This document shows, piece after piece, positions 19,461-34,142 of a stretch of DNA of 64,000 bases (the stretch's first letter is position 1; each line of letters starts with the position of its first letter). The stretch is from Cyclobacteriaceae bacterium (lineage in GTDB: Bacteria > Bacteroidota > Bacteroidia > Cytophagales > Cyclobacteriaceae): positions 1 to 64,000 of the forward strand of contig CATQIH010000033.1 of the NCBI GenBank assembly GCA_958296015.1, read 5' to 3'. The translations under genes and the position numbers were made by a program. The notes below the pieces were generated by a model. That model saw only the letters and a list, made by a program, of their open reading frames with translations. It was not told the origin of the DNA and did no database searches.

Positions 19461-20114
19461 TCAAAACAAACGATAGTTTTTGCGATGAGCTATGGCCAGC
19501 ATATCGTGATCTCCACGGCTATCGCCATAGCCATGAATTTCCTGAAAATCTTCAAGAGCAAGCAAGGTTTTGATCCGGTTTACCTTTTCTTTTCCATAGC
19601 AGTTCGGGCCCTCAAGCTTTCCGGTTACTTTGCCATCTTTAATTTCCAGTTTGGTTCCGATCAGCTCGATGTCCAATGACTGGCACCAGGCGAACAACCA
19701 GTTTTCTGCCGAGGCAGATACCAGATACACTTTTTCGCCTTTTTGGATATGCTCTTTGAGCCTTTGTAGTGCTTTAGGACGTACAATTTCCGGAATACGA
19801 TTGGTGCCGTAGTTGTCGCAGATCGCCTGGAACTTTTCCAGAGATTCTCCTTCAAAAAAGTAAGTCAACACCTGCTCTTTTGCCTTCCAGTTTGGAATTA
19901 CTTTGGCCTTGTACAGCAGCAGGGTAGGGAAGAGGCGCACAAAGCCTTTGATAAAGCGTACATTGCCATGATAGTATTTGATAAAATCAATGAAAGAATC
20001 ACGGCGGGTAATAGTGCCATCAAAGTCAAAAAGTACCAGAACCTGATTTACAGCTTCATCTTTTTGAAAATTCCTTCCGGGATCATTTTGATGATGAACA
20101 TGATGAGTCTCCAT
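19461..20114 (-). CDS. HAD-superfamily phosphatase (HAD-IB type), third gene of a UbiA/SDR/HAD trio
   Basis: This 217-residue protein has the HAD motif I 'FDFDGTIT' (nucleophile Asp30, Asp32), a lysine in the middle region and motif 'GYGDSRGDHDML' for Mg2+ binding. It belongs with the phosphoserine-phosphatase-like HAD-IB group. The only ATG (20114) makes it overlap the SDR gene by 67 bp; a shorter non-ATG start near the SDR stop is possible, as the HAD motif begins right there. By position it may remove the 5-phosphate from a polyprenyl-phosphoribose made by the UbiA enzyme, the step done by a different phosphatase in mycobacteria. That role is inferred. Confidence 0.82.
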   Translation of the reverse strand: METHHVHHQNDPGRNFQKDEAVNQVLVLFDFDGTITRRDSFIDFIKYYHGNVRFIKGFVRLFPTLLLYKAKVIPNWKAKEQVLTYFFEGESLEKFQAICDNYGTNRIPEIVRPKALQRLKEHIQKGEKVYLVSASAENWLFAWCQSLDIELIGTKLEIKDGKVTGKLEGPNCYGKEKVNRIKTLLALEDFQEIHGYGDSRGDHDMLAIAHRKNYRLF

Positions 20115-27029: not shown

Positions 27030-28502
27030 TTACTGGTTTACAATTTTTTGAGCCTTTGTATCAAATTTTATCAGTTGCGGCATGAGTATGTAAATAGCAT
27101 ACAATACAAACCCATAGGGCAGCTGCGAAATAGATGCCTGTGCGAAGTTGGCCACCGTCAGGGCAAAAAAGATGCTGATATAGGCCGCGTATAAAGCCCT
27201 GATGTGCGGATCTTTTGCTTTGAAATAATTGCTGATTCCTGTGACGATGATGACAAAATAAAGCGTGAAAACAATTATCAGTCCTACCCATCCTGTCTCC
27301 AGCGTCACTTTCAGATAGCCACTGTCCGGAGGAAAGCCTGCCAGTATATGATTGGGCGAGAATCGTACGCCGTCAGGCCCTGTGGTGGTCAGACCACCGC
27401 CAAAAGGGTGTGCATAGATGTAAGGCTGAATTCTGGCCCGGTTAACTTCTCTGACGTTCATAGAAGCGTCTTGGGTAGGCACAAAGGCCGACCTGATCCT
27501 GTTGATAGTGCTGTTATGCACAGGGGCGGTGAGAATAGCAATAAAAAGGAATAAAAACGTAGCACCTGCCAGTAGCGTTTTTTTACGATTCAGCGTCAAG
27601 AAGGCATAGACCAGGAAACCAGCGGGAATCATGGCATAGGCCGTACGGGTACCGGAATAAGACATGGATAAAAGCATCAGCAGGCTACTGATTAAAAGCA
27701 GCAACTTCTTCCGTCGGCTGTAGGGGCCCAGCAGCAATATGGAACAAAAGATACTACTAATTGCCATAAACATACCAAAAGCAGTACAGTCAGACAGAAA
27801 CGACCACTTGCGCCATCTGCCTTGAATAAAGTTCAGGCCAATGAGTTGCTTGGTGCTGGTGACCCAGGCCAGGTCATAGCTGGGTAGTCCGGCAAATTCC
27901 TGGTATAACCCGTAGATCGCTGCCAGCAGTGCGATACCCAACCATACTTTTGTGAAAATATTAACAAAATTCAGAGAATCGAAAACATGCATCAGAATGA
28001 TGTAGGTAAAGAACATATTGAGGATGCCCCGCGCTCCAAAGAGCCAGCCCGCCATAGAGGTAGCATTTGGGTTCAGTGCCTGTATCAGCAGGTACAACAA
28101 CCATATGCCCACCATAAAGGTGATAGGGTTTTGAAAAGTATGGTACATAGCTTTCCGTTTGATCAGTACGCCTATGAAAGCGGCGTATGTGAGCACTTCG
28201 GGAATGATACCAAAAGGAGCATCTACAAATCTTTTAGCAACAAAAACAAAAGAAGATACCAGAAAAATCGTGATAAAACCTACCTGTAAATCAATAATAC
28301 ACAATACGAGAAAGGGAATTCCTACAATAGCTCCCAGTAGCAAGATGCCTGCTTTGATGCCTAAAAACGCGATTACATAGGCAAAACCTACCGAGCATAG
28401 CGACAATGCCAGCATCAGCAAAAGCTGGCTGTGCTGATCAATCTGTTTGATCAGAGAAGTGAGCTGAAGAGTTAGTAGGGTCTTTTTACCGGATATATTC
28501 AC
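27030..28502 (-). CDS. O-antigen ligase / polymerase (Wzy/WaaL-like) membrane protein
   Basis: This 490-residue protein has about 11 membrane spans and a large periplasmic loop (about 330-410) containing 'AHPFGGGLTTTGPDGVRFSPNH', the region seen in Wzy/WaaL ligase and polymerase families ('H..YL...G..G'). It should polymerise repeat units or ligate polysaccharide on the periplasmic face. The start is GTG at 28502; no better start was seen. It comes after the 34-residue peptide gene and before the sulfotransferase. Wzy versus WaaL cannot be separated. Confidence 0.8.
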   Translation of the reverse strand: MNISGKKTLLTLQLTSLIKQIDQHSQLLLMLALSLCSVGFAYVIAFLGIKAGILLLGAIVGIPFLVLCIIDLQVGFITIFLVSSFVFVAKRFVDAPFGIIPEVLTYAAFIGVLIKRKAMYHTFQNPITFMVGIWLLYLLIQALNPNATSMAGWLFGARGILNMFFTYIILMHVFDSLNFVNIFTKVWLGIALLAAIYGLYQEFAGLPSYDLAWVTSTKQLIGLNFIQGRWRKWSFLSDCTAFGMFMAISSIFCSILLLGPYSRRKKLLLLISSLLMLLSMSYSGTRTAYAMIPAGFLVYAFLTLNRKKTLLAGATFLFLFIAILTAPVHNSTINRIRSAFVPTQDASMNVREVNRARIQPYIYAHPFGGGLTTTGPDGVRFSPNHILAGFPPDSGYLKVTLETGWVGLIIVFTLYFVIIVTGISNYFKAKDPHIRALYAAYISIFFALTVANFAQASISQLPYGFVLYAIYILMPQLIKFDTKAQKIVNQ

Positions 28503-28532: not shown

Positions 28533-28637
28533 TCAGAAGAACATGATTTTTATAAATAGCATCAGGTACACCATACCAACAAAAGCGATGGTGAAGAATT
28601 TGATGATGTTTTCCGTATCAAATTTTTTGTATCTCAT
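28533..28637 (-). CDS. 34-residue single-span membrane peptide
   Basis: An ATG at 28637 opens a 34-codon frame ending TGA at 28533-28535. The product has a charged N terminus ('MRYKKFDTENIIKFF') and one hydrophobic span ('TIAFVGMVYLMLFIKIMFF'). It overlaps the end of the glycosyltransferase gene by 20 bp and lies 30 bp before the O-antigen ligase-like gene, so it fits the operon spacing. The + strand frame in the same place is likely a shadow. No family is recognised; it could be a small partner of the polymerase. Expression is unproved. Confidence 0.45.
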   Translation of the reverse strand: MRYKKFDTENIIKFFTIAFVGMVYLMLFIKIMFF

Positions 28638-29862
28638 GGTATTTAGCATTCAAGTTTTCTTCAATCAATTGATAGAGCTGGCTGGTGCGGTGCTCCCAGG
28701 TGTTTTTTCCGGCTTCTTCAACCCTTCTGGCCTTCAAGTCAGCAGCATCCTCATCAATAGCTCGCTGGATATTCTTTATAAACTGCTTGCCAGATTCCGA
28801 TATATAAGCCAGGTCGGCAAATGCCTGAATATCTTCGGAAAAAGAGGTGGACACCACAGGAAGCCCGGCCGCAAGATATTCATTGATCTTAAGCGGGTAG
28901 ATGCTTTCAGTCAGTGTATTACACTTAAAAGGGATGATGGCACATTTGGCTGATTGCAAATAGCCAGGCAGTTCTTCGAGTTGCTTTTTGCCGGTAAAAA
29001 CAATATTCTGATAGGTTGCCAGTCTTTTTGTTTCTTCTTTCTTTAAAGAATTCGGACCAACCAGTAACAGTATTTTTTCAGGGTAGGTGATGGCGATCTG
29101 CTCAAGCAACAGCACATCTATTCTTTGGTCAAGATGACCGGTGAAGATGACAATGTCCTGGTCTTGCAGTGGCATATCTTTGGGCATGGGCAGATCGCCC
29201 GAAAGTGCTGTATGGAAGATAGCGGTATCAGCCGCGTTGGGCAAATAGTATACTTTTTGGGTGTCCTGTTCTTTCAGCTTCTTTAATTTCAGCGAAGTGA
29301 CAAGCGTAAAATCAGCCCTTTGGCTTATTTCTTTTTCCAGTCTGCTGCCATGTTTCTGCACATAGCTGGCCTCACTGATGTCGTCTACCGTATGATAAAT
29401 GAACAGACTGGGCTTGAAGTTCGCCGGAAAAGAGCGGACGTAGAAAGGATTAAAAGAGTTGATAAAGATATACTCCGTGAGCTGATGATCTTTGACGATA
29501 CTGCTCAGCACTTTGCTCACCAGCTTGTTATTTAACTTCGACAGCATATCGTATACCTGATCATTTTCTACCCAGTTGATCGGGGCGACCAGCCGGGGTG
29601 TTACGATGGTGAGGTCGCTGCCCGGCAGGTTGAGCGGATGGTAGATGTTTCTGCCGAAAAGCAGAGCAGCAGTGCGTGCCTTCACACGGGGCTGCTGGTA
29701 CTGCCACAGGAAATCTTTGACTGTAAAAGGATTATCGATATAAAAGACCGGATGCGATTTTGCAATTTCTTTACATAGTGAGAAAGAAGTAGAGGCATAT
29801 TCCCCGTCCCACCTGGGCAAAGCCAGCATAATGAACGCCGTATCTTTATTGAGTTTCTTCAT
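28618..29862 (-). CDS. glycosyltransferase family 4/1-like
   Basis: This 414-residue protein has the two-domain GT-B shape of nucleotide-sugar glycosyltransferases: an N-terminal half with 'DNPFTVKDFLWQYQQP' and 'IYHTVDDISEASY', and a C-terminal half with 'DIVIFTGHLDQRID', a 'LVGPNS' strand, 'KCAIIPFKCN' and the donor-binding 'YLAAGLPVVSTSF' motif that includes a Glu. It should add a sugar during repeat-unit synthesis at the inner membrane. It lies 18 bp after the flippase stop. The sugar cannot be told. Confidence 0.85.
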   Translation of the reverse strand: MKKLNKDTAFIMLALPRWDGEYASTSFSLCKEIAKSHPVFYIDNPFTVKDFLWQYQQPRVKARTAALLFGRNIYHPLNLPGSDLTIVTPRLVAPINWVENDQVYDMLSKLNNKLVSKVLSSIVKDHQLTEYIFINSFNPFYVRSFPANFKPSLFIYHTVDDISEASYVQKHGSRLEKEISQRADFTLVTSLKLKKLKEQDTQKVYYLPNAADTAIFHTALSGDLPMPKDMPLQDQDIVIFTGHLDQRIDVLLLEQIAITYPEKILLLVGPNSLKKEETKRLATYQNIVFTGKKQLEELPGYLQSAKCAIIPFKCNTLTESIYPLKINEYLAAGLPVVSTSFSEDIQAFADLAYISESGKQFIKNIQRAIDEDAADLKARRVEEAGKNTWEHRTSQLYQLIEENLNAKYHEIQKI

Positions 29863-29880: not shown

Positions 29881-31239
29881 TTACTTCTTAAACTGGTTGA
29901 GGCTAAGCGTGTATAGCTGCATATAAGCCTGGATCGCGTGCCGTATCACGTTGACCAAGCGAACATGCAAGGCGCGGTACAGGTAAAACTGGTTGTATAC
30001 CGTACTTACGGTGTAAGTGAGCAGTGTGCCATAGGCAGCCCCGATCACCCCAAATTCCTGGATAAACAGATAGTTGAATACAATGTTCATCAGCGCATTG
30101 CGAACCACAAACCGGAAGTTCAGTGAGGCTTTTCCGATAGCTTCCAGGGTCACGCCCAGCTGTCTGTTCAACGGTAACAGCAAGCTGTAGAGTACTGTGA
30201 TTCTTAAAATGGGAGCAGCTTCCAGATAATCTTCACCGGCAATCAGTACCGTGATAGGCTCGGCAAAAATCAGGACGATGAGCACCACCGGTAAGACACA
30301 GCAAAGAATAGTGCCTACTGATTTCTCATACAGATATTTCGCCGACTGATTTCCTTCTGTGGCTACTTTTTGTGTAAGCTTGGGAAACAGTATGGAAGAA
30401 ATAGTGAGTGCAGGAATTTCCAGCAGATTGGCTATCCTCAGCGCAGGATTATAAATGGCAACAGCCAAAGGATTCATCATCCTACCCAGCATCCATGTAT
30501 CGGTATTTCGCATGAACATGGCACTCACGCTACTGCCAAACGTATATTTTCCATAACCAAACAGCTTGGTCACCCAATGCCATTCTGTGCTGAAAGAAAG
30601 CATCATATACCGGCGTGCATACACAAAGGAGATGCACACACTCATGCCGATAGCAGCTACCTGAAACCAGGCAAGATGTATTAGTGTAAGCGGCTGACCG
30701 GTGATATAACAGGTAAGAATACATGCCAGAAAGATGCCTTGTCGGGTAGCTTCGCTAAACAGAGAACCTTTAAAGTTCAGGTTTGCCTGCTGTACATAGT
30801 CAAAATGGTGGAGCAATACGAGTAGTAACAAGGCAATGAGATATATATCAAACAGCGGCTCCAAACCCGGCTGATCCCAGAAGATGCTTAGTCCTTTGGA
30901 AGAAATGAACAGTAAAAAACCAATAACCAGCGTGATTAGTAAATTTAGGATCAGAGAGGCATTCAGTACTTTTGCTTTGTCTTCGTCTTCCTGGTAATAT
31001 TTGATAAGGGGATTTCTGATAAAGCCTGCTTTGATTAGCTCAATGACCGTAGCCACGGAGATAAACAGCATCCAAATACCGTATTCCACCTGCGTCAGCA
31101 TACGTAACAGCAAAAAGAAACTGGCAAAGCCGAACAGCGACACCGACAAACGGTTAAAAAGGATCAACAATCCGGATTTTATCCAGTATGATCCTTTTGC
31201 CTTTTCCCATATGCTGTTTATCTGTCGGGTCATAAGCAT
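29881..31239 (-). CDS. polysaccharide flippase (Wzx-like, MATE/MOP family)
   Basis: This 452-residue protein has about 12-14 hydrophobic spans and the layout of oligosaccharide flippases such as Wzx and RfbX: 'ILFNRLSVSLFGFASFFLLL' at the start, 'GYGKYTFGSSVSAMFMRNTD' in the middle, and 'VLYSLLLPLNRQLGVTLEA' later. It should move lipid-linked repeat units across the inner membrane. The ATG at 31239 overlaps the TolC-like stop by one base; a second ATG at 31233 is also possible. No ABC exporter genes were seen, so a Wzx/Wzy-type pathway is likely. Confidence 0.85.
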   Translation of the reverse strand: MLMTRQINSIWEKAKGSYWIKSGLLILFNRLSVSLFGFASFFLLLRMLTQVEYGIWMLFISVATVIELIKAGFIRNPLIKYYQEDEDKAKVLNASLILNLLITLVIGFLLFISSKGLSIFWDQPGLEPLFDIYLIALLLLVLLHHFDYVQQANLNFKGSLFSEATRQGIFLACILTCYITGQPLTLIHLAWFQVAAIGMSVCISFVYARRYMMLSFSTEWHWVTKLFGYGKYTFGSSVSAMFMRNTDTWMLGRMMNPLAVAIYNPALRIANLLEIPALTISSILFPKLTQKVATEGNQSAKYLYEKSVGTILCCVLPVVLIVLIFAEPITVLIAGEDYLEAAPILRITVLYSLLLPLNRQLGVTLEAIGKASLNFRFVVRNALMNIVFNYLFIQEFGVIGAAYGTLLTYTVSTVYNQFYLYRALHVRLVNVIRHAIQAYMQLYTLSLNQFKK

Positions 31240-31952
31240 TAGAGTGCAGATTCTAAGGACACACCAATATATGACTCTAATCGTGCTTTTTCTATTTTCG
31301 CCTGCATTTCCTGCTGAAGTAACGTAGCTCTTACTATGCTATAGCTGTTGGTGATCTTGTTGTATTCATCCAACGTAGCTTCGCCTATCTTGAACTTCTC
31401 AGAAATAGTCAGAAAATTGGCGTAGGTATCTTCGTTTTCTTCTGTGCGTATCTGCAAGAGCTGATTTGCCAACTGATAGTTATAATACTGTTCCAACACC
31501 TCAGCCCTTACTTTGAGTTTCTGCGCGTTCAGCATCTGTCCTGCAATAGTCACTTCTTTTTTAGCAATCTTTATGCTGGTTGGCGTAGTAATAATGTCGC
31601 CTAAGCTAACACCCAGCGCAATGTTATATTTGGGATAAGCCAACAACCTGCCAGTGGCGTTCGGGTCTTGTGCAGGGCCGGAGCCTAAGGTGTTGTCGTT
31701 GATATTATAGACAGCTCGCATGTTTTTTGTCCAGCCCCATTTAGACAGAGATACATTTTTTTCAGCAATCTCCACCTGGTCCTGATAGGTTTCATTCATC
31801 GGATGGTTTTGCCAGGCGAGCCTGACCAGTTTTTCCTCTACTGCATTGTCCCCGTCATATTCTTTTGGTGTGATGATCTTGTTATAATCAACAGTTTGTG
31901 CCATACTTACGGAAGTAAGCAGGAGCATAAAAAATACATTCGCTATTTTCAT
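31239..31952 (-). CDS. half-length TolC-like outer-membrane protein
   Basis: This 237-residue protein has a signal peptide (about 1-19, 'SMAQ') and one TolC-type repeat with the helical hairpin 'KLKVRAEVLEQYYNYQL' and the terminal 'LESYIGVSLE', which matches how TolC proteins end. Normal TolC subunits are about 430-490 residues with two such repeats, so this is about half size. The frame is intact. A TTG at 31961 is rejected for the ATG at 31952. It follows the Wzc-like gene by 29 bp, where a Wza-type pore would be expected. Confidence 0.75.
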   Translation of the reverse strand: MKIANVFFMLLLTSVSMAQTVDYNKIITPKEYDGDNAVEEKLVRLAWQNHPMNETYQDQVEIAEKNVSLSKWGWTKNMRAVYNINDNTLGSGPAQDPNATGRLLAYPKYNIALGVSLGDIITTPTSIKIAKKEVTIAGQMLNAQKLKVRAEVLEQYYNYQLANQLLQIRTEENEDTYANFLTISEKFKIGEATLDEYNKITNSYSIVRATLLQQEMQAKIEKARLESYIGVSLESAL

Positions 31953-31981
31953 ATCAATCAATATTAGAAATACGTTCGATG

Positions 31982-34142
31982 TTAAAGATTTTCCGGGCTC
32001 ACTTTATTCAAAATCACCGCCACGGTATGCTGCTCCATGCTTTTTAGGTATTCAAGGCCGTCCTGCGATAGGTTATTCAGGCTGGTTTCCGCATCAAAAA
32101 CCTGGATGATCTTGTCTGCATAGTGCATGAGTTCTTTTGTGTCGGCATATTCTACCAAAGGTGCACCTTCTATAAAAATGTACTGGTATTTCAACAGCAG
32201 CTTTTCTAGTAACCCTTTGAAGTCCACTTGGGCAAACACTTCAGAGGGGGAATAAGGGCCACCCTCGCAGCCTAAGATGTCGATGCCCTTGTGGGCTGTG
32301 CCAGAGACCAGCTGCTCTGGATCAATGTTGCTGCCCGTCAGGTATTTTTCCAGCGCAGGTTTGGCTCCATACGTTTTGGTGAGGCCATTGTGCTTAAAAT
32401 TGGTATCAATGAGCAATACCTTTTTCATGTTTAGGCTCAGAGAATAGGCTAATGATAACATGGCAGAGGACTTTCCTTCTCGAGTATTTAGGCTACTGAA
32501 CAACAGCACCCTGGCACCCGAATTTTCGATCTCGTGTCTGATCTTTCGCAAATTCTCTCTGTAAAGTATCAGCTCACTACCTGCCTCGCTGGAAAGTGAC
32601 TCCAGGTTGATAGACTTAGGCTTGATTTTGTTCAGATAGCCCATAGCTTTTAGTTGCGTAAACTCCTCGAGTAGTTCCGGATTTTTAGGTTTTCGGTTAA
32701 AAAATTCCATGCCAATGAAAGCAACACTGGAAAGGCAAGCACTCAAGGCACCGGCCAGCAAGACAATCAGTATTTTTTTGGACTTGACAGGCTCATCTGC
32801 CGGGTAGCCGAGTTCTACCTGGCTCAGCGTGTTGCCCACATTCCGGGAAGTAAGCCTGGTGCTATTGAGCTTGTCGAGTAGGCTAAGATAAGCATCCTGT
32901 GCCACAGAAATTTCTCTTTCCAGTGCCGAAATCTGAGCCTCTTTGGAAGCAAAACCTGAAATACTGCTTTTCAGCCTGTGGATTTCATCTGATAGCGAAG
33001 CGGCACTGGCCGTAGCAATTTCCAGTTCCACTTCGTTGTTGATCTTGTTGTTGACGAGTTCGCGTTTTGTATTGTTGCTGCTCATGGCTGAGTTGCTGGT
33101 TGAGTTGCGAATCTGGCTTTGCAGTTCTTTTCTCAGGTCTTCCAATTGCGCTTTGAACTGTGCATTTTTGGGCTGATCAATCAACTGCTCGTTGAGTTTG
33201 CTGATTTTGTTCTTCGTATCCAGAATCTGTGCATTGATCACTTCTGTCTGGTTCTCCAAATAGTTGAGGTCCTGACCGCTGAGCTGCGTGGTCAGTCGTT
33301 TGTTGGCCTGTTCCAGACCGATAATCTTTTTCCGCTCTTCCTCTCTTTTTACCTCAAGCTCACGAATCTGGTCGATGATGGATTGGCTTTGCACATCCAG
33401 ATTGACCACTTCGTTGTATGACTTGAAGTTTTTCAGGGCATTTACTTTTTCATCCAGTTCCTTCTTCTTATCATCAGACAATTTTGACAGAAACTCTACC
33501 GAGTTGGTAGAGCGTTCACTGCGGATGGTGATGTAGTACCGGATAAACTCTTTACATAGCGTATTGACAGCAAAAGCTGATAACTTCGGATCTTCTGAGA
33601 TGAACTCGAATTTAATATAGTCGGTGCTGGGAATACGGTAGATAGTGAGGTCTTCCTTCAGCGACTTGTTATCGTATTTCATGTCTTTTAAAAAGTCCAG
33701 GTACACAAGGTCTGCCTCTTCGGAAGAAGACAACACTTTGATAGAATCCAGTTTGTTTTTAAATACAGCTTTTGCCTGCTGAAGAAATTGTGCTGAGTAT
33801 TTTTCTTTGATATCCTCATCAAATGGCCGAAAGGGCTTCTTTGCTTCCAGGTCATGCAAGATGATACGATAAGAGAGCAGGCTCAATACCTGGCGCGAAC
33901 GGATGTTCTCTACCAGGTTACTGAACTTATTTTCTGTAGAAAAATAGTTGTTGACTTCGGCGTTGTCGCTCAGAGAAACTGCCTGCTGATCGGTGATACC
34001 TGTGGCCAGCTGTGCTGTGGATATATAAGAATTGCGAACAGACAGCGAAAAAAAAGCCGGCAGCTACCACTGCAATTGAGGTGATCAGCATGATCAACCA
34101 CTTTTTTCTGTAGAGTATCTTGAATAAATTGACCAGCTCCAT
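31982..34142 (-). pseudogene. Wzc-like polysaccharide co-polymerase / tyrosine kinase, split by a one-base frameshift
   Basis: The ATG at 34142 opens 'MELVNLFKILYRKKWLIM', the first membrane segment of a Wzz/Wzc protein, but the frame stops after 71 codons. The rest continues in another frame from 'SLSVRNSYISTAQLATG' at 34048. An 8-T run (coding strand; 34048-34055) joins them; 7 Ts would give one 719-residue protein. The remainder has the coiled-coil periplasmic region, a second span, Walker A 'REGKSSAML', Walker A' 'VLLIDTNF' and 'IFIEGAPL'. The C terminus lacks a tyrosine cluster. It should set polymer length with the exporter. The break may be sequencing error, a phase-variable tract, or a dead gene. 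Confidence 0.88.
34048..34055 (-). repeat. homopolymer run (8 T on the coding strand) at the frameshift
   Basis: Eight A on the + strand (T on the coding strand) follow the codons for Ala28-Gly29. Seven would restore the frame of the Wzc-like gene. The run sits just inside the first membrane segment. It is a good site for polymerase slippage in replication or sequencing. Confidence 0.8.

Follow-up and report, generated by a model that had tools for sequence, protein, structure and literature searches.

In the window, a stretch of 64,000 nucleotides from a contig of a Cyclobacteriaceae draft assembly, the gene for a Wzc-like protein is broken by a single frame change at a run of eight T on the coding strand. 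This break is probably a one-base length error at the T run in the assembly consensus; similar breaks in unrelated genes of this assembly now make that reading the best supported one. The initial annotation, made from the letters of the window, had proposed a phase-variable switch, recent inactivation or a sequencing error as the cause of the break. Its interpretation is partly supported: the anatomy that it described (a one-base break, a healthy downstream frame and a clean join) is supported, the phase switch is not, and sequencing error, the last of its options, has become the favored one.

Results

Structure of the broken gene

The run of eight T was read directly from the sequence of the minus strand, and the features on either side of it are given in Table 1. 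A reading frame starting at the ATG at 34142 crosses the run and stops after 71 codons, and alignments confine homology with relatives to the first 31 of these, which rules out the 71-residue product as a separate gene and limits the earlier description of an N-terminal piece of 71 codons to a genuine N-terminus of 31. The Pfam Wzz model (PF02706) matched residues 2-32 of this N-terminal piece slightly under its cut-off (5.9e-5; 23.7 bits against 25.5), and the GNVR model (PF13807) matched the long piece, also slightly under its cut-off (26.6 bits against 27.7). The second frame is already open just upstream of the T run; it encodes 685 residues from 34039, or 693 from stop to stop, with zero internal stops, and ends at the stop at 31982. 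A start at the TTG at 33886 was rejected as that of the main product because the protein would lack the first membrane helix kept by homologues, although a minor product could still arise there.

Frame-tolerant alignment against the 722-residue ORF of a sibling genome required one frame change, which was placed at the T run, and revealed no further lesion in the Wzc-like gene. The sibling residues around the join match both frames of the window gene. These data bear out the earlier statements that a T run splits the gene, that the two frames join cleanly at conserved residues and that the downstream frame has not decayed.

Table 1. Features of the Wzc-like gene and its locus in the window, and frame-broken genes elsewhere in the same assembly (G000)
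Feature	Position	Strand	Evidence
T8 run, point of frame change	34048..34055	-	Direct reading and frame-tolerant alignment to sibling protein
71-codon ORF: codons 1-31 form the genuine N-terminus (Wzz-type, with the first membrane helix), remainder out of frame	33927..34142	-	ORF list, Pfam Wzz, homologue alignment
Rest of the Wzc-like coding sequence, with an open, conserved frame (GNVR domain and altered nucleotide-binding domain)	31982..34039	-	Sibling identity, GNVR, sub-cut-off NCBIfam Wzc/Eps matches
Gene for an outer-membrane efflux-type (OEP) protein, immediately downstream of the Wzc-like gene	31239..31961	-	Pfam OEP 8.3e-16
Wzx-like polysaccharide flippase gene, same locus	29881..31239	-	Pfam Polysacc_synt_3 9.9e-26
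Glycosyltransferase group 1 gene	28618..29862	-	Pfam Glyco_trans_1_4 8.8e-12
Wzy/O-antigen ligase-type polymerase gene	27030..28502	-	Pfam Wzy_C 1.2e-12
Cyanophycin synthetase, three successive frames, seamless joins	L085 15913-18595 (G000 C30)		TIGR02068 positions 1-648, 641-707, 706-861
2-Hydroxyacid dehydrogenase, frame-broken, seamless	G000 C9		NF006263 1-181 then 182-309
Wzt-like ABC ATPase, frame-broken, seamless	G000 C33		NF010065 68-162 then 161-251
GDSL hydrolase, frame-broken, seamless	G000 C33		PF13472 3-72 then 71-178

Comparison with relatives

The genome from which the window comes (G000; 5.9 Mb, 66 contigs, completeness 95.05) was compared with its sibling (G001; completeness 100), the only genome of the same genus in the comparison, and a search for Wzc-like genes over 59 genomes, G000 included, gave a match in 50. 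The sibling orthologue (G001:C9:138223-140277; 71% identity, E=0) is intact, forming a single open frame of 724 codons that is joined at the same residues as the two frames of the window gene. Outside G000, every one of the 15 matches scoring above 100 bits, the sibling's too, has an open frame (724-782); this comparison serves as the check that is free of open-frame selection. Among the lower-scoring rows outside G000, two had open frames below 700 (G015:C84, 616; G022:C96, 554).

A T run of seven or more occupies the homologous place in 2 of 29 distinct homologues, a set drawn from open frames of 550-900 residues, so that broken homologues are excluded by construction, and in which L006 and L016, being the same record, were counted once. 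This low count rules out a conserved slippery site at the T run, and it also makes it more likely that the run represents phenylalanine codons of a membrane helix rather than a conserved signal. The run at the homologous codons of the sibling is also T8, but lies in frame there because the preceding codon differs from that of the window gene.

Frame breaks elsewhere in the assembly

The sample examined for other frame breaks comprised about 1.2 Mb of G001 and, with the window, about 1.0 Mb of G000. A first, crude classifier put down 130 of 133 frame changes as gene boundaries; being too permissive, it was replaced by a coding-frame HMM with a score of boundary against frameshift, applied to the first-fetched parts of the sample. 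One of the three frame changes flagged by the crude classifier, at 20063 of the window (20051-20114, minus strand), is an ordinary gene overlap, since two genes overlap at the same place in the sibling. The HMM gave 21 frameshift candidates in 784,655 bases of G000 against 2 in 390,951 bases of G001 (conditional binomial P 0.007), the 21 being an upper figure because several look like ordinary overlaps by eye (e.g. C9:37710, C20:108973, C20:120601). At a stricter score the counts were 7 and 0, a difference that is not significant (P 0.059). The HMM itself did not pick up the break in the window, the N-terminal piece probably being too short for it.

We also took a census of orthologues in both directions. 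When 294 ORFs of G001 were compared with the G000 sample, 2 of 63 orthologue-like matches had frame changes, and in the reverse comparison of 605 ORFs with G001 there were none among 66; the contrast runs in the same direction as that of the HMM and is not significant alone (P 0.11-0.23). The shortness of the N-terminal piece caused the window break to be missed here as well. The window is otherwise clean, with 20 orthologues mapped at 1057-36741, the Wzc-like gene included, and no frame change flagged by the census. A second census matched 111 and 109 ORFs, of which 25 and 19 were aligned with frame tolerance and one query of 2841 residues was left out on account of its size; its rule of 95% coverage counted the window gene as whole and assigned a TonB receptor on contig C20 to a paralogue. 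This second census backed breaks in a Wzc gene on C9, in the gene next to the C20 receptor and in an ABC gene on C33. Its marks at C20:319904 (first codons) and C20:30350 (45% identity) were not counted. Nor were the sibling events of its reverse direction counted as sibling breaks, these being mirror images of truncated G000 ORFs, or three further sibling events that came from an antisense ORF (G000_C20:276884-277468).

The four frame-broken genes listed in Table 1 have parts that join seamlessly in the matching family model. The breaks in the Wzt-like ABC ATPase and GDSL hydrolase genes (L044 2811-4065 and 6629-7409) lie on the same contig as the window, C33, 23-28 kb past its end. A cluster of breaks was found on C20 at 341498-346473 (L095), where within approximately 5 kb the TonB receptor gene carries seven one-base breaks and its neighbour two, both genes being otherwise well conserved; the pieces are 46-70% identical to the sibling. 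All nine breaks are insertions (two-sided P 0.004 under equal odds). Pseudogenes usually do not decay by insertions alone. The finding of nine insertions and zero deletions in two adjacent genes suggests that this stretch is probably a poorly covered region of the assembly.

Counts for two multi-copy protein families point the same way. Frame-tolerant alignment placed one break in an AcrB gene on C32, and of the AcrB family loci that pass the cut-off, 2 of 10 in G000 and 0 of 15 in G001 have broken frames. Open frames shorter than 400 residues were found for 4 of 50 TonB barrel rows in G000 (on C20, on C18, on C27 below the cut-off, and on C33, where the contig start truncates the gene); in G001 none of 80 is that short, the smallest open frame having 643 residues. 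The C14 AcrB and the C18 and C27 TonB fragments have overall identities of 22-32%; no frame change was found in the C18 fragment, and the several in the C27 fragment are individually uncertain. The AcrB-type pump on C14 (L102; 146500-150500) is in three pieces, with model positions of about 277-722 unmatched and an extra frame change near its end. Similar breaks thus lie in several unrelated genes of this assembly and are far fewer in the sibling examined alike. Most of the confirmed breaks elsewhere are clustered and lie at short runs or at none, not at T8.

Runs of eight T are not exceptional in this genome. Across 445 long ORFs of G000 (584 kb) we counted 10 T8 runs on the coding strand, where synonymous shuffles give a mean of about 20, and 35 A8 runs, for which they give about 45. 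The T8 at the break site is no more than chance gives and nothing special in G000. The HMM placed a frame change near one other (candidate C20:117155) of the 39 A/T runs of eight or more in HMM-coding G000 sequence, not flagging the break of the window among them, and near none of the 34 such runs in the coding sample of the sibling.

Other Wzc-like genes

Three of four Wzc-like genes are broken in G000, the window gene included, against 0 of 5 in G001 (Fisher P 0.048), a comparison with a tiny count that was made after one gene had been seen to be broken. The Wzc gene on C9 has one isolated frame break, at 187180, and is 69% identical to an intact sibling copy. The Wzc-like gene on C30 (L041 1-1443), which lies at the contig start, has one isolated break near 930; errors are common at contig starts. 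If breaks fell at the average load (27-60 per Mb), the probability that at least two of the other three genes would be broken is 0.014-0.06. This excess over the average load hints at something specific to these genes.

Locus and predicted function of the Wzc-like protein

On the same strand, the Wzc-like gene is followed by genes for an OEP protein, a Wzx-like flippase, a glycosyltransferase and a Wzy-type polymerase (Table 1), which together make up an exopolysaccharide locus. In Wzx/Wzy systems an inner-membrane polysaccharide co-polymerase cooperates with the flippase and the polymerase (Wzx and Wzy) and with an export protein of the outer membrane. From this background and the content of the locus, the Wzc-like product would by family be the inner-membrane polysaccharide co-polymerase.

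Wzc-type BY-kinases are defined by a Walker A' motif D-x-D, a Walker B aspartate and a C-terminal tyrosine cluster. We aligned the window gene with 21 homologues (L002-L005, L007-L009, L012-L025), and all 22 clade members carry D-x-N at Walker A' and E at Walker B, whereas the aligned PDB Wzc shows D-x-D and D; three rows outside the clade (L003_+_11664, L005_+_582 and L107) were left out of the count. A C-terminal tyrosine cluster was found in none of the 22, the C-terminus ending soon past an LNKV-like motif, and the last 30 residues hold one or two Y in the 10 members listed. The 685-residue part lacking the N-terminus scored below the NCBIfam cut-offs for TIGR01007 (63.6 bits against 108.05) and TIGR01005 (66.2 bits against 411.7). 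A literature search on the altered domain listed a single paper, a review of phosphorylation in oral bacteria. The conservation of this altered kinase domain in 22 of 22 aligned sequences argues that the Wzc-like protein of this clade is probably not a tyrosine kinase, and the clade itself probably represents conserved non-kinase co-polymerases of Cytophagales and relatives.

Discussion

These observations are explained most economically if one-base consensus errors burden the assembly as a whole, the T8 break being one among them. We infer the membership of this particular break in that class from the breaks in other genes. The completeness of 95.05 for G000, against 100 for G001, is expected if indels break genes. 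According to the authors of a GeneTack survey (PMC3711429), singleton frame breaks with BLASTp validation should be sequencing errors and not genuine indels, and short indels at homopolymers are given as the main long-read error in PMC12007338. The living cell thus probably has an intact gene for a Wzc-like inner-membrane protein of roughly 719 residues and of the polysaccharide co-polymerase type, and this protein would act with the OEP, Wzx, Wzy and glycosyltransferase products of the neighbouring genes in exopolysaccharide assembly and export, a role predicted from the locus and from known Wzx/Wzy systems.

A genuine recent and non-programmed indel that inactivated the gene, arising for example by replication slippage at the T run and perhaps favored in laboratory culture where exopolysaccharide is dispensable, is the serious second explanation, although on balance rather unlikely. 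It is to be taken seriously because the other orthologues of the window are unflagged and because the break site is isolated; the isolated breaks in two of the three other Wzc-like genes also speak for it. Against it are the occurrence of the same kind of break in genes unconnected to exopolysaccharide and the lack of any other decay in the Wzc-like gene, and the force of the Wzc comparison is lessened by its post hoc nature and by the position of the C30 gene at a contig start. It is improbable that the three Wzc breaks are real and not independent, the strain or culture having repeatedly switched off its co-polymerases by single-base indels, with the T8 site reversible.

Phase variation, in which frequent gain and loss of bases in the T run would leave only a fraction of the cells making the full-length protein, might be expected of a gene within an exopolysaccharide locus, a usual target of switching, and the sibling too has T8 at the homologous codons. 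Yet the sibling run is in frame, runs of at least seven T occur in only the two homologues, and the gene is unbroken in all 15 strong matches from other genomes. With T8 not enriched in coding sequence and just one other long A/T run flagged by the HMM, we find such a switch improbable. A homopolymer-switched wzc was named in no title or abstract opening found by our literature search. The earlier suggestion that slippage could rescue the gene fares worse still. In principle, some full-length protein could be restored at the U run by slippage in transcription or, rarely, by a +1 event on the ribosome (a -1 ribosomal shift would not do so, the earlier arithmetic on this being correct). Poly-A/T runs are capable of slippage, as described for the 11 A of C. 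rodentium tssM in PMC4256274, and according to PMC1088944 some apparent pseudogenes are rescued in this way and the effective length varies among bacteria. PMC1088944 also puts this length at nine bases for a large share of genomes and classes 8 A as non-slippery; moreover, the off-frame arrangement is conserved in 0 of the 15 strong matches. Rescue by slippage is thus highly improbable, and we retain a consensus error as the probable cause of the frame break.

The distinction matters for how this genome is used. If the break is an error, frame breaks in this genome are not readable as biology, and any other finding from the window or the genome that depends on a broken frame should be checked likewise; if it is real, it would represent a simple switch or loss of exopolysaccharide assembly in a little-studied lineage of Bacteroidota.

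The situation resembles known cases in several respects. Like the gene-fragmenting consensus indels of draft genomes described in PMC12007338, one-base breaks are found here in otherwise intact unrelated genes, some at homopolymers, along with lower completeness; unlike them, the site in the window is isolated, not clustered. As in tssM of C. rodentium (PMC4256274), a membrane-protein gene that is intact elsewhere has its frame break at an A/T run, but the run there is 11 A against 8 T here, and slippage there was shown by RNA and protein. With Wzc and the BY-kinase co-polymerases (PDB 7nhr, 7ni2; phmmer 9.1e-19) the protein shares a C-terminal P-loop domain and, with Pfam matches slightly under the cut-offs, a putative Wzz-type N-terminus and GNVR region, and the clade differs from them by its Walker A' D-x-N, its Walker B E in place of D and its C-terminus without the tyrosine cluster.
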